This document shows positions 46,705 to 52,044 of a stretch of 64,000 bases of DNA, piece after piece. Origin of the DNA: Bacteroidales bacterium (GTDB taxonomy: Bacteria > Bacteroidota > Bacteroidia > Bacteroidales > UBA10428); assembly GCA_016928305.1 (NCBI GenBank), contig JAFGKY010000073.1, forward strand, positions 1-64,000. Direction: 5' to 3'. Made by a program: the position numbers and the translations under genes. The notes under the pieces were generated by a model that was not told where the DNA came from, ran no database searches, and was given only the letters and a program-made list of their open reading frames with translations. Each line of letters opens with the position of its first letter. Within the stretch, counting starts at the first letter, position 1.

Positions 46705-46731
46705 GTAGAGAGCGATTAATCGCGTCTCTAC
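46705..46731. repeat. REP-like palindrome (GAGA/TCTC foot)
   Basis: GTAGAGAGCGATTAATCGCGTCTCTAC. Confidence 0.75.
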
Positions 46732-46753
46732 GGAAAAAAAATATTCATTACCG

Positions 46754-48148
46754 ATGAAATTTGTAACAGCCCTTTTCTTTTTGCTTTTTGCCGCTCTTTC
46801 TACAGCATGCTCCGATACCGGTTATATCCTTACCGTAAAGATTTCCAGACTGCCTGATTCAAAGGTGTTTCTTGCGACTATGCGGGGTGATGCTTATAAG
46901 ATCATCGATACAGCTGAATTGAAAGACGGATTGTGTAAGTTCAACTTATCCGTTATGAATCAACCCGGTATGTATAAAATAATCCCTGAAATATCGTTCA
47001 GCCAGGGTTACCGTAATGCTCCCCTGAATGATCTCGACATTATTATTAACCGGGAAGACGTCGTGGTCAGAACCGTATATCCCTGGCTCCGGGATAGCCT
47101 GGTGATCATGGAATCGGAAGAAAACAACGTATATTTTGACTACCTGAAACAGGAGATGCTGATTCAGAACAAGCTGGGATTATTGCATAACCTGTTGCTC
47201 CAGTTCCCTGCCGACGATGAATTTTACAGTACTGTTGTTAAACGATACAATGCCCTTCAAAAAGAGAAACGTATTCTCATTCAGCACACCTGTGCTTCTC
47301 ATCCGGGTACTTTTGCGACAGGTCTGATAGCCATGCAACGATCACCAATACCCGATGCCGGCTTGCCAGAGCCAACACGACAGGCATATATAAAACAGCA
47401 TTATTTCGATGAACTGGATTTCACTGATGAAAACCTTATCAACAGCAATGCATATACACGAAGCCTTATACAATATCTTATGCTGTACAGGGATCCGGCA
47501 TTATCCCGGGACGAACTTGAAAAGGAATTCATGAAAGCAGTCGACATTATCTTGTCCCATGTCAATAAAAACCCTGTAGTATACGACTTTCTTCTGAATT
47601 ACCTGATGGAGGGATTTGAAAGGCTGAAACTTGAGAATGTGCTGAAATATGTTGCGGACAACTACCTGAATACCGTATGCACTACCGACAACAGTGCAAC
47701 CCTTAAACGGAGGCTGGAAGGTTATAGTAAATTGGCTGTCGGCGAAACCGCACCAGACATAATCATTCCTGACCAGCAAAACCAGGAGATAAAGCTTTCT
47801 GCCATCCATCATGCTTACACTCTGGTGGTCTTCTGGTCAAGCTCATGCCCGTCATGTGAAGAGCTGCTGCCAAAGATTAAAAAGTGGTATTCCTCAAAGA
47901 CAATTGATCTTGAAATCCTGGCCGTTTCGATCGACACGCTTGCTTCTGACTGGATTAAAGCTGTGGAATCCGGCGGATACAACTGGTTAAACGGATGCGA
48001 TCTGAAAGAATGGGACGGACAGGCTGCACAGGATTATTTTCTGTATGCAACCCCATCGATGTTCCTGCTTGACCGTAACCGGAAGATCCTAGCAAAACCA
48101 TTATCGTTTGAGGATTTTTTAAGGGCGGTGGAAGGACTGGGGAAATGA
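46754..48148 (+). CDS. TlpA-like thioredoxin-domain lipoprotein
   Basis: Lipobox STACSDTG; C-terminal thioredoxin fold with CPSC (FWSSSCPSCEELLPKI). Confidence 0.88.
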   Translation: MKFVTALFFLLFAALSTACSDTGYILTVKISRLPDSKVFLATMRGDAYKIIDTAELKDGLCKFNLSVMNQPGMYKIIPEISFSQGYRNAPLNDLDIIINREDVVVRTVYPWLRDSLVIMESEENNVYFDYLKQEMLIQNKLGLLHNLLLQFPADDEFYSTVVKRYNALQKEKRILIQHTCASHPGTFATGLIAMQRSPIPDAGLPEPTRQAYIKQHYFDELDFTDENLINSNAYTRSLIQYLMLYRDPALSRDELEKEFMKAVDIILSHVNKNPVVYDFLLNYLMEGFERLKLENVLKYVADNYLNTVCTTDNSATLKRRLEGYSKLAVGETAPDIIIPDQQNQEIKLSAIHHAYTLVVFWSSSCPSCEELLPKIKKWYSSKTIDLEILAVSIDTLASDWIKAVESGGYNWLNGCDLKEWDGQAAQDYFLYATPSMFLLDRNRKILAKPLSFEDFLRAVEGLGK

Positions 48149-48184
48149 ATTAACTGAACAACCACAAATGCATAACAATATACC

Positions 48185-48218
48185 ATGTGTTGAGACGTAA
48201 GATCTTACGTCTCCACAT
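48185..48218. repeat. REP-like palindrome (GAGAC/GTCTC foot)
   Basis: ATGTGTTGAGACGTAAGATCTTACGTCTCCACAT. Confidence 0.8.
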
Positions 48219-48395
48219 AATGTACAAAAATACCTGACAGCAGGTATATACTGTAATACAGGTTTATGGTATTTTTGATGGCAATATAATTCTTTGTTTA
48301 TAATTATAAGATAATCGTACAAAAGATGACATTTTGTTATGATTTGATAACAGACTGGTAATATTAAAAAAACCTTATTTTATAATAATACAACC

Positions 48396-49424
48396 ATGAA
48401 AACTACCAATCCGCTTTTACTGTTTTTGATAAGCTTATTATTTGTCGCCTGTGAATCTGAAAACGATGATGGCACTGAAACGGGTGTTCCTGTATTACGA
48501 ACATCCATGGTCACCGGAGTAACTGCCGATACTGCTGTATGTGGTGGTAATATAACCGACGATGGCGGATCTCCGGTCATTGCCCGTGGAGTATGCTGGA
48601 GCAACTCGCCGAATCCGACAGTGGAAAATGACAAATCGGATGATGGTGAGGGTGCCGGACAGTTTAGAAGTTATATCACCGGATACAGTGCGGATACAAA
48701 ATACTATGTCAGGGCTTATGCCACGAACAGCACGGGAACAGGTTACGGTGATCAGGAAACATTCCGGTATATACCGCCAAATGGTACCTTTCTTGATCTG
48801 CGCGACAATCATGAATACAAGTGGGTAAGGATATGCAACAGGGTATGGATGGCCGAGAACCTGGCCTTTTTACCAGCTGTCAGTCCTCCAACAATAGAAT
48901 CATATACGGAACCAATCTTTTATGTCAATGAATATAATGACACCAGCGTCAGTGAAGCTATGGCTACAGAAAATTATAAAACCTACGGTGTATTATATAA
49001 CTGGCTGGCGGCAATGAATGGTTGTTCGGGCGATAGTACCAGCGCCAGTCCTGTCAAAGGAATATGTCCGGATGGCTGGCACATGCCGAAGGATGCAGAC
49101 TGGACGGAACTTGTTGATTCACTGGGAGGAGTCGAGGTTGCGGCCGACAAACTCAGAGAAAAAGGCATTGGTCACTGGCCAGTGCCAAATGCAGGAGCCA
49201 GCAATACTAGTGGTTTTACTGCTCTTCCGGGTGGTTTCCGTTCCGATAAAGGAAGGTTTGGTACACCGGGTTTTTCCTGTTATCTATGGTCTGCCTCTGA
49301 GAGTGGGGAAGGACAGGCCTGGTTCCGCAGTCTTTATATGATTGAGGACAATAAGTACAAAGTTAATCGCTATGAAGGTTATTATGGACTTGGTTTCAGT
49401 GTTCGGTGCATCAGGGATAATTGA
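48396..49424 (+). CDS. FISUMP-domain lipoprotein with N-terminal Fn3-like region
   Basis: Lipobox FVACESEN; KTYGVLYNWLAAMNG, CPDGWHMPKDADWTELVDSLGG, SGFTALPGGFR, FSVRCIRDN. Confidence 0.9.
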   Translation: MKTTNPLLLFLISLLFVACESENDDGTETGVPVLRTSMVTGVTADTAVCGGNITDDGGSPVIARGVCWSNSPNPTVENDKSDDGEGAGQFRSYITGYSADTKYYVRAYATNSTGTGYGDQETFRYIPPNGTFLDLRDNHEYKWVRICNRVWMAENLAFLPAVSPPTIESYTEPIFYVNEYNDTSVSEAMATENYKTYGVLYNWLAAMNGCSGDSTSASPVKGICPDGWHMPKDADWTELVDSLGGVEVAADKLREKGIGHWPVPNAGASNTSGFTALPGGFRSDKGRFGTPGFSCYLWSASESGEGQAWFRSLYMIEDNKYKVNRYEGYYGLGFSVRCIRDN

Positions 49425-49453
49425 TTGATTCGATGGCATTAATGAAATAAAAC

Positions 49454-50104
49454 ATGTTACAGGAAAAATATAGGAATCAATACCGCATTTCATCTGACAG
49501 GCATCCCGGTTGGGATTATACATCGTCCGGTGCCTATTTTATCACCATTTGCACAAAAAACAAGGAACATTATTTCGGGAAAATCAGAACAGGAACGGAA
49601 TGCCAGGATGGACGCAATGTAGAGACGCAAGATTTTGCGTCTCTACGTGTGTCACAAATAAATATTGTACATGTACATTATTCGGAAATAGGAAATATTG
49701 CATGTCAATATTGGTCCGAAATTCCCGATCATTTTCCGTTTGTTGAATTGGATGAATTCATTGTAATGCCAAATCATGTGCATGGAATTATATTATTTAA
49801 TGATATTATTTCACCTGTAGAGACGCAAGATTTTGCGTCTCTACGTTTGCCAGAACAATCATTGTTAGACAAAATTTGGCATACCAACAAATTCGGCCCC
49901 CAATCAAAAAACCTGGGTTCTGTGATCCGTGGGTTTAAATCGGCCGTAAAATCATACGCAACAAAAAACAATATCGATTTTGCCTGGCAGGGCAGGTATT
50001 ATGACAGGATCATAAGGGATGAAACGGAATACAACAGGATACAAAAATATATTTTGGACAACCCGGCGAATTGGGGGAATGATGAATATTTAAATTCAAT
50101 ATAA
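49454..50104 (+). CDS. REP-associated tyrosine transposase (RAYT, Y1_Tnp) with two in-frame REP copies
   Basis: HUH motif VMPNHVHGI, catalytic-Tyr region RYYDRIIRDETEYNRIQKYILDNP; VETQDFASLR occurs twice. Confidence 0.92.
   Translation: MLQEKYRNQYRISSDRHPGWDYTSSGAYFITICTKNKEHYFGKIRTGTECQDGRNVETQDFASLRVSQINIVHVHYSEIGNIACQYWSEIPDHFPFVELDEFIVMPNHVHGIILFNDIISPVETQDFASLRLPEQSLLDKIWHTNKFGPQSKNLGSVIRGFKSAVKSYATKNNIDFAWQGRYYDRIIRDETEYNRIQKYILDNPANWGNDEYLNSI
49619..49646. repeat. REP-like palindrome inside RAYT ORF, copy 1
   Basis: GTAGAGACGCAA-GATT-TTGCGTCTCTAC. Confidence 0.95.
49817..49844. repeat. REP-like palindrome inside RAYT ORF, copy 2 (identical to copy 1)
   Basis: GTAGAGACGCAA-GATT-TTGCGTCTCTAC. 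Confidence 0.95.
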
Positions 50105-50179
50105 ACATCGATTGCCTAAACACCCAAACACCCTTTCGGGGTATGGAAGATGCATTCATAATATATTTAAAGCAATTAC

Positions 50180-51238
50180 TTGAATAATTTCATGTTTTTG
50201 TTATATTTGGTTGTAACGTTGTTTAAAAAAGATAAATCCATGTTTACAATCCTTACGAATAGCTTCGGGTGGTCTGCTAAATGCTACATTGCCCTGTTTA
50301 TTTTGTTCTTTGGCTTTTCACTTACCGCTCAGCAGGTCAATAATATCCACTATGAACAGAAAGATGATTTGATACACATATATTATGATCTGACGGGTGT
50401 AAAGGGCGTTGATAAATATACCGTCGAAGTATATTGCAGCGAGGATGGCGGGATCACCTGGGGATTGCCGTTGCAGCAGGTTACCGGTCATGCCGGTGAA
50501 CATCAGACGGCCGGAACCGATAAAACGATTATCTGGAACGCATTAGCCGAGAGAAATGTTACTGTGGACGATATTTTCATAAAAATCGTTGCAAAATGTG
50601 AAAGACCTATGTCGGGTGTCTTCACCGATCCCAGGGATGGTCATGTGTATGCATGGGTGAGATTGGGCGATCTGGCATGGATGACAGAGAATCTGTCGTA
50701 TTTACCGGCGGTACAACCTCCTATCATGGATTCCGGTACAGATCCCTGTTATTATGTATTGGGTTATAATGGGACAAATGTAAGTGCCGCAAAAGCCGAA
50801 GCTAATTATAAAACTTACGGGGTATTGTATAATTGGGCAGCAGCCGTGCAATCATGTCCTGCCGGATGGCATTTATCGAGCGATGATGAATGGAAACAAC
50901 TGGAGATGGCACTGGGCATGAGTCAGGCTCAGGCCGATGCAACAGGATGGCGTGGTACCGACGAAGGAGGGAAACTAAAAGTGGTCGGGTACAATTACTG
51001 GTTAAATCCGAACCTGGGTGCAACCAACAGCAGCGGGTTCAAAGCGCTTCCCGGAGGTTACCGCCACATGAAAGGTACCTTTACCGGTGATAAATACAAC
51101 GGTTTCTGGTGGACCTCCTCCGAAGTCGGTTCCGGAGCTGCACGGCGCCGCAGGCTGAGCAACAATAATATGGGCATAGCCCGTGAGATCTATTACAAAG
51201 GTTTCGGCTACAGCGTGCGTTGCGTTCAGGATCAATAA
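50180..51238 (+). CDS. FISUMP-domain secreted protein (second copy; start may be internal)
   Basis: KTYGVLYNWAAAVQSCPAGWHLSSDDEWKQLEMALG, SGFKALPGGYR, FSVRC-like YSVRCVQDQ. Confidence 0.9.
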   Translation: MNNFMFLLYLVVTLFKKDKSMFTILTNSFGWSAKCYIALFILFFGFSLTAQQVNNIHYEQKDDLIHIYYDLTGVKGVDKYTVEVYCSEDGGITWGLPLQQVTGHAGEHQTAGTDKTIIWNALAERNVTVDDIFIKIVAKCERPMSGVFTDPRDGHVYAWVRLGDLAWMTENLSYLPAVQPPIMDSGTDPCYYVLGYNGTNVSAAKAEANYKTYGVLYNWAAAVQSCPAGWHLSSDDEWKQLEMALGMSQAQADATGWRGTDEGGKLKVVGYNYWLNPNLGATNSSGFKALPGGYRHMKGTFTGDKYNGFWWTSSEVGSGAARRRRLSNNNMGIAREIYYKGFGYSVRCVQDQ

Positions 51239-51252
51239 TTATTAATTTCATG

Positions 51253-51279
51253 TGGAGACCGTTGCGTGCAACGTCTCTA
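51253..51279. repeat. REP-like palindrome (GAGAC/GTCTC foot)
   Basis: TGGAGACCGTTGC-GT-GCAACGTCTCTA. Confidence 0.75.
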
Positions 51280-51337
51280 AATAACAACATGTTATTTTAT
51301 CCGATGTTCCAGGCGAAATCATGCAATATGCAAATTA

Positions 51338-51868
51338 ATGACAGAGAAATACCAGCACAAATATCGTGTTGACACCTCCCGTGCCAAATGGTGGGATTAT
51401 AATAATGCCGGATTATACTATGTGACCATTTGTACCAACGACAGAATAAATTATTTTGGCGATATTGTGGATAATGAAATGGTATTATCCGATATTGGCA
51501 AAATGGCCGTCGAATATTGGTTAAGAATTCCGGTTCATTTGCCATTTGTTGAATTGGATGAATTCATTGTTATGCCCGATCATATCCATGGGATTATTGT
51601 AATTGAAAATACAATACCAACGAACCAATCCCCGCCAATCCTGAAAAATATACATATGACAACCATTTCCCCTAAATACGGATCGTTATCATCGGTGATC
51701 CGTTCCTATAAATCGGCCCTTACAAAATGGTGTAATTCGAATAATCTTTTCTTCGAATGGCAATCACGGTTTTATGACCGGATTATCAGGAATGATGATG
51801 AATTGAACAGGGTCAGACAATACATACGAAACAATCTGGTTCATTGGAAGGCAGACGATGCAATTTAA
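51338..51868 (+). CDS. REP-associated tyrosine transposase (RAYT, Y1_Tnp), second copy
   Basis: VMPDHIHGI HUH motif; RFYDRIIRNDDELNRVRQYIRNN. Confidence 0.92.
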   Translation: MTEKYQHKYRVDTSRAKWWDYNNAGLYYVTICTNDRINYFGDIVDNEMVLSDIGKMAVEYWLRIPVHLPFVELDEFIVMPDHIHGIIVIENTIPTNQSPPILKNIHMTTISPKYGSLSSVIRSYKSALTKWCNSNNLFFEWQSRFYDRIIRNDDELNRVRQYIRNNLVHWKADDAI

Positions 51869-51937
51869 TTACAGGATGATGCATCCAAGGGCCGATCCAC
51901 ATAGCCGCTCGTGATCCCAGCTGGATGATATACATTG

Positions 51938-51960: not shown

Positions 51961-51971
51961 TTTTAAACTTG

Positions 51972-52044
51972 TGATCCAGCTGGGATTCGAACCCAGGACC
52001 CCATCCTTAAAAGGGATGTGCTCTACCTGCTGAGCTACTGGATC
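51972..52044 (-). tRNA. tRNA-Lys (anticodon TTT)
   Basis: Minus strand GATCCAGTAGCTCAGCAGGTAGAGCACATCCCTTTTAAGGATGGGGTCCTGGGTTCGAATCCCAGCTGGATCA; cloverleaf with CTTTTAA anticodon loop. Confidence 0.96.

Follow-up and report, generated by a model that had tools for sequence, protein, structure and literature searches.

Double-foot repetitive extragenic palindromes (REPs) that flank tnpAREP genes or lie inside them have already been described as subclass 2.4 (Quentin et al. 2018, PMC6006769), intragenic REPs in general have been described in PMC3733652, and co-evolution between REPs and REP-associated tyrosine transposases (RAYTs, or TnpAREP) has been described for groups 2 and 3 (Corneloup et al. 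2021, PMC8266576). In its complex with a REP, the E. coli enzyme contacts GTAG from beta-1 and the neighbourhood of beta-4, while alpha-3 makes the contacts to the stem (PMC8266576). In vitro work has established how RAYTs recognise their REPs only for a few enzymes, all in two groups other than group 4; for group 4 we found no biochemistry. Here we analysed a stretch of 64,000 nucleotides from a Bacteroidales bacterium (assembly GCA_016928305.1, contig JAFGKY010000073.1, positions 1 to 64,000; hereafter the window), in which REPs lie near two RAYT genes and also inside one of them. Very probably this region consists of two REPtrons of TnpAREP subclass 2.4 (RAYT group 4), in which each RAYT goes with a 28-bp double-foot REP of a type of its own and recognition is modular. 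The observations behind this reading are the anatomy of the elements, their dispersal throughout the genome, their enrichment near RAYTs, the preservation of the reading frame where they lie inside a gene, and a code that connects the REP stem with segments of the protein.

The first-pass annotation of the window had reported five palindromes with a GAGAC/GTCTC foot and no further copies, and all of this was borne out. The palindromes were verified in the sequence at 46705, 48189, 49619, 49817 and 51252, and a covariance model built on 29 copies from the organism's own genome recovered exactly these five loci and none other, three of the five having been among its 29 seeds. The motif GAGAC-N8..20-GTCTC occurs four times in the window, where shuffles predict 0.21 occurrences, and Rfam gave no match at the palindromes. 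They represent four types of stem (GCGATT, GTAAGA, GCAAGA twice, and GTTGCG), each of which recurs in the own genome or in others, and they are listed here without a strand. The copy at 46705-46731 (stem GCGATT; 28.1 bits, E 2e-6) has 27 nt, GTAGAGA-GCGATTAATCGCGTCTCTAC, and is one base short since one GAGAC of its foot is without its C; the copy at 48189-48216 (39.8 bits) has the stem GTAAGA, found again in the own genome at G000:C14:11861. The copies at 49619-49646 and 49817-49844, identical in sequence and with the stem GCAAGA/GCAAAA, each encode VETQDFASLR, as amino acids 56-65 and 122-131 of RAYT1, and the copy at 51252-51280 (29 nt with one extra C; stem GTTGC(G/A)), also matched by the covariance model, lies 57 bp upstream of RAYT2. 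The assignment to a RAYT/REP system proved right, since copies associate with RAYT genes both within the genome and between genomes; the statement that they cluster around two RAYT genes understated the case, as two of them lie in frame inside the RAYT open reading frame (ORF) at 49454-50104.

The annotation had also considered the family local, which did not hold up: a covariance-model search of the organism's own assembly (G000; 4.80 Mb in 173 contigs, 93.75% complete, the window being contig C103) returned 50 distinct copies at a cut-off of E<=0.1. An alignment of 29 own-genome copies shows conservation over exactly 28 nt, GTAGAGACG-N10-CGTCTCTAC; the edges of this unit are sharp and its flanks unrelated, and the foot consensus describes a double-foot REP, GTAGAGAC-N12-GTCTCTAC, with GTAG at both ends; the outermost G-C pair is kept in 22 of the 29, and the ends follow the double-foot pattern GT[AG]G...C[TC]AC. 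As short palindromes with GTAG that occur in many dispersed copies, mostly between genes and linked to RAYTs, they qualify as REP elements. As to the link, 7 of the 50 copies lie within 3 kb of the three RAYTs of this genome against 0.157 expected (P 4e-10, about 45-fold enrichment) and three lie inside them against 0.019 expected, while the third RAYT alone (contig C123), which was no part of the original finding, has two REPs within 1.5 kb against 0.038 expected. Only three of the 29 strict copies are interior to a recognisable gene, all of them in RAYT genes, and the remaining ORF-located copies are at extreme ORF ends or in spurious-looking ORFs. At one locus of the own genome (L007, C21:44069) a REP supplies the C-terminal codons (IVETLHATSPYNVI) of an ORF with ligase-like sequence.

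The REP helix covaries among the own-genome copies, with 95% of cells paired against 88% when shuffled and a covariation score of 0.289 against 0.142, and the two central pairs are complementary in 25/29 and 23/29 copies, which a hairpin alone would not demand. Neither of the results that the first-pass annotation had named as refuting it occurred: the copies are associated with RAYT genes and covary beyond chance, and they are not terminators. It had further taken compensatory variation as a sign of selection on, or propagation of, a hairpin in single-stranded DNA or RNA; the covariation does exceed chance, but perfect dyads through the centre cannot by themselves tell such a hairpin from a double-stranded dyad, and the differing stems are mostly distinct REP subtypes paired with different RAYT clades, not free compensatory drift in one element. 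For stem types GCGATT, GTAAGA/GTAACA and GTAGCA (for example at 46705, 48189, C54:22093, C75:5396 and C93:29568) no matching RAYT class was found in the assembly. The GCGATT stem of the copy at 46705 goes with KNPM..WYKG RAYTs, and a class N query found no class N RAYT in the own genome; the GTAAGA stem of 48189 falls in no assigned class. The own genome therefore carries REPs of several RAYT types, some of them orphaned.

RAYT1 (49454-50104, + strand) is an HUH/Y1 TnpAREP of 216 amino acids with H108-V-H110, W178-Q179, Y199 and the two in-frame REPs, and RAYT2 (51338-51868, + strand) is a TnpAREP of 176 amino acids with DHIH, WQ and Y, which matches PF01797 (E 4.6e-5), is without an internal REP and aligns around both inserts of RAYT1. 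RAYT1 goes undetected by Pfam, apparently since its domain is split by the two inserts. An AlphaFold model of RAYT1 based on 62 sequences (pLDDT 79.7, core confident) has as its best PDB match in Foldseek 4er8, the E. coli TnpAREP-REP complex (E 1.7e-6), with further matches to 2xm3 and 2a6m (IS200/IS605 TnpA), and a profile of 62 relatives searched against PDB sequences gave 4er8 as its sole match (E 1.7e-7); by model and profile, RAYT1 has an HUH/Y1 fold related to TnpAREP. Copy 1 falls in a low-confidence loop before the HUH strand and copy 2 in another between the HUH strand and helix 154-171, so the inserts are predicted to occupy loops and to leave the confidently modelled HUH/Y core free, in agreement with the modelling of Quentin et al. 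Copy 2 lies between H110 and Y199 with the frame kept, as in subclass 2.4, and the third RAYT (L024) has an in-frame REP in the same loop, read as HRDAMHRVSTA. The motifs NHVH, WQ and YILDNP of RAYT1 and DHIH, WQ and YIRNNL of RAYT2 are each off the consensus of Quentin Table 1 at one or two positions, the comparison being with the published consensus (NH[IFV]H, WQ, YIxNNP).

Beyond this genome, a named scan returned 80 loci, mostly in Bacteroidota and also in Patescibacteria, Methylomonas, Kuenenia, Neomarinimicrobiota and Kapaibacteria (names of metagenome-assembled genomes, MAGs, taken as given). Among 297 genomes of the phylum a RAYT is present in 41/55 with REPs and in 60/242 without (odds ratio 8.9, Fisher P ~1e-11). 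Taking all sets together, 131 of 234 RAYT ORFs have an in-frame REP, a fraction somewhat inflated by 20 loci that were picked for long ORFs. The 109 strict in-gene copies are read in frame 0 (VET...SL) in 79 cases and in frame 1 (RDA...VST) in 30, and the frame that would read TAG is used by none. In more distant RAYTs (L090, L095, L094 and L107) the same loop holds long low-complexity repeats, for example VVAQNN..GQPQG or LQYAPTENKT, and no REP of the AGAGAC type; these are possibly other REP-derived peptides.

An in-gene REP could be functional, the RAYT binding it in its own gene or mRNA, limiting its own expression, and enzyme and element being linked in horizontal transfer. This is compatible with the two-REPtron reading, and we regard it as possible though rather doubtful. 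It would agree with the REP density at the 76 usable loci, which falls from 1.11 per kb in RAYT ORFs to 0.27 up to 500 bp away, to 0.04 between 0.5 and 1 kb and to about 0.01 at greater distances, a difference of some 100-fold between the ORFs and sites beyond 1 kb. The in-gene palindromes are moreover conserved with changes on both sides (99.3% of cells paired against 80% shuffled among 57 distinct REPs, both sides changed in 8/12 pairs), and near-identical RAYTs retain theirs, even through a change from GTAG to GTGG that is matched by CTAC to CCAC in the partner (L144/L288). However, local insertion together with tolerance of the loop would give the same picture, 103 of the 234 RAYT ORFs, many of them intact-looking, are without a detected internal REP, and RAYT2 has none.

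The stem variation was compared with the protein after masking the REP-encoded residues, using the six apical REP bases. In a discovery set of 54 RAYTs, leave-one-out prediction of the coarse stem class was correct for 50 from two segments (44 columns), for 39 from the other 118 columns and for 13 with shuffled labels. For 126 RAYTs with an internal REP, a partial Mantel analysis controlled for distance over the remaining protein associated the apical stem with alignment windows 95-117 (0.48), which correspond to a loop and the start of helix 154-171 in RAYT1 (segment B, amino acids 133-165, ...NKFGPQSKNLGSVIRGFKSAV; 49850-49948, + strand), and with alignment window 55 (0.32), within amino acids 76-97 (segment A), the N- and C-terminal parts being at or below zero and the highest value in 200 permutations of the stem labels being 0.08. 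The foot variant (AGAGAC versus AGGGGC/AGGGAC) peaks elsewhere, at the N-terminus (0.47) and at FAWQ...HIIR (0.31), with the stem segments around zero. At the level of residues, which a small permutation control makes leads only, apical bases 2-4 track amino acids 144-152, 160 and 164, apical base 6 tracks 86-94, and the foot tracks 7-15 and 176-180. The E. coli contacts (PMC8266576) provide, from an independent structure, a map that matches this segment code, and in the profile alignment the end of helix 154-171 through the Y motif lies opposite 4er8 residues 81-122. In the window, RAYT1 has FGPQSKNLGSVIRGFKSAV with EIPDHFPF, which pairs with GCAAGA/GCAAAA stems, and for segment B of RAYT2, ISPKYGSLSSVIRSYKSA (ISPK..IRSYKSA), the nearest segments come in 8/8 cases from RAYTs with GTTGC stems, predicting the stem that is found in the palindrome 57 bp upstream. 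Judged from these sequence comparisons, what appeared as stem covariation is mostly a RAYT-REP code, and it looks like a readable recognition code.

Mere linkage, with a REP located just upstream of segment B and recombination moving both without any recognition, is an improbable source of the code. It would explain that the strongest association is with the segment directly after the internal REP, and recombination in the loop, between in-gene REPs, seems indeed to take place: L306 has two in-frame REPs and its close relative L199 one, with 75 nt (25 codons) less and the frame kept, a difference that is probably due to such recombination. But the HUH strand, equally near on the opposite side, hardly associates (partial r 0.03-0.15), whereas segment A, beyond that strand, associates and specifies apical base 6, and the foot associates with the N-terminus and the WQ segment, both distant from the REP. 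Furthermore, RAYTs that have only flanking REPs follow the same code: for 15 of them segment B predicted 4.69 of the six apical bases, compared with 2.92 for the N-terminus, 2.94 for the C-terminus, 3.13 for the HUH strand and 2.46 for a random RAYT (Wilcoxon P 0.0008-0.003 for segment B versus the other segments), and with RAYT2 added 0/20000 shuffles match the observed value.

Under the two-REPtron reading, each RAYT would be a single-strand HUH/Y1 nuclease that recognises, and presumably has spread, its own REP type. The N-terminus and the WQ...HIIR region would read the foot (GTAGAGAC or GTAGGGGC), and the end of the second helix, together with the loop and helix alpha-3, would read the apical stem and loop, so that stems of type GCAAGA/GCAAAA belong to RAYT1 and those of type GTTGC to RAYT2. 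The two remaining stem types of the window would be copies of further subtypes whose RAYT is absent from the assembly. We infer that the enzyme binds the REP hairpin on single-stranded DNA, cleaves, and copies or moves the REP in trans. REPs would accumulate near their source, landing or persisting most in and beside the RAYT gene; there, the ORF may survive their insertion thanks to a loop that is variable and two frames that are free of stops. We hypothesise more tentatively, at somewhat less than even chances, that the in-gene REP serves as a built-in label which is maintained, keeps enzyme and element matched through horizontal transfer across phyla and perhaps acts in self-regulation, within a modular amino-acid-to-base code (the stem being read by alpha-3, the loop base by the end of the second helix, and the foot by the N-terminus and WQ...HIIR).

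Several observations weigh against the two-REPtron reading. Class rules that were fixed before new genomes were examined were right, when applied strictly, in 5/5 cases for class Q, 5/8 for F and 1/3 for I, and caught only 26/120 ORFs, most RAYTs lying outside any class; of the five misses only GCGGCA is no variant of the expected stem, the others being GTTGCT once and, three times, GCAAGA/GCAAGG with GCAAAA as the other arm. The stronger results for the code rest on nearest-neighbour prediction, and one class W RAYT (L082) has an internal GCGATT REP, a GCCCAA REP lying 228 bp away. Fourteen REP-bearing genomes of the 297-genome set gave no RAYT hit, and no clean before/after state of a 28-bp insertion was found, near-identical RAYTs both retaining the REP.

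Ordinary transcription terminators or mRNA-stabilising hairpins are a most unlikely explanation: three of the five window copies are intergenic and four-base-loop hairpins are possible, but an intrinsic terminator (GC-rich hairpin and T run) was rejected, as no T run follows the 28-nt unit in the 29 copies, two copies lie within an ORF, and the terminator-like sites of the region (4 versus 5.9 in shuffles) never coincide with a REP. Palindromic elements of the Rickettsia type, invading any gene as selfish peptides, have as slight a chance, for REPs do insert in frame in coding sequence, but membership of that family, which calls for in-frame copies in many unrelated genes, was rejected: among the 29 strict copies of the own genome, none apart from the three in RAYTs is interior to a recognisable gene.

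Two Fib_succ_major (PF09603) paralogues, at 48396-49421 and 50240-51235, alternate with the two RAYT genes, and a tRNA-Lys(TTT) gene (51971-52044, - strand) adjoins the RAYT block. Homology to a genome of the same genus (G002) returns at 51892, next to tRNA-Lys; on the RAYT side of this point G002 has different genes, and the block of 48.1-51.9 kb may be variable DNA next to a tRNA gene. G002 is also without the 46705 copy in the syntenic gap between guaA and AhpC, a gap too diverged to give a junction. The segment-to-base map accounts for palindromes in the window that vary at the top and not at the foot, makes REP recognition testable, and could guide the reprogramming of a small single-stranded DNA hairpin nuclease; since group 4 genes carry their own substrate, any one of them that is sequenced provides a labelled enzyme-substrate pair.

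The REP/RAYT system of the window belongs to the described subclass 2.4, for which a segment-level code was not found described: we found no report of one for group 4 RAYTs in the papers searched, which did not extend to subscription papers, and among the papers listed for the string GTAGAGACG all were unrelated. As with IS200/IS605 TnpA (IS608, ISDra2), there is a Y1 HUH fold and, presumably, recognition of a single-strand hairpin, but neither IS ends nor transposition of the gene itself were seen here. Rickettsia palindromic elements (PMC3733652) likewise lie in frame inside genes, yet the genes that they enter are many and unrelated, and no transposase is dedicated to them, whereas the REPs here concentrate in their own transposase gene. 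The REPtrons of E. coli, Stenotrophomonas and Marinomonas (groups 2/3; PMC8266576) share the HUH/Y1 RAYT, the GTAG foot, the stem at alpha-3, GTAG at beta-1/beta-4 and the co-evolution; their REPs have one GTAG and are strand-specific, those of group 2 with a bulge and a non-specific upper stem, whereas here the same hairpin is present on both strands and the upper stem varies with the enzyme. The closest system is subclass 2.4 itself (PMC6006769), known from Bacteroidetes and Cyanobacteria, with which the window shares the GTAG...CTAC double foot and REPs beside and in tnpAREP that leave the frame unbroken, mostly between HuH and Y. It differs in that RAYT1 has an additional copy before the HUH motif and that stem type and foot each follow a pair of protein segments, a different pair in each case, and the examples of the subclass are extended to Patescibacteria, Methylomonas, Kuenenia, Neomarinimicrobiota and Kapaibacteria, with MAG assignments as given.

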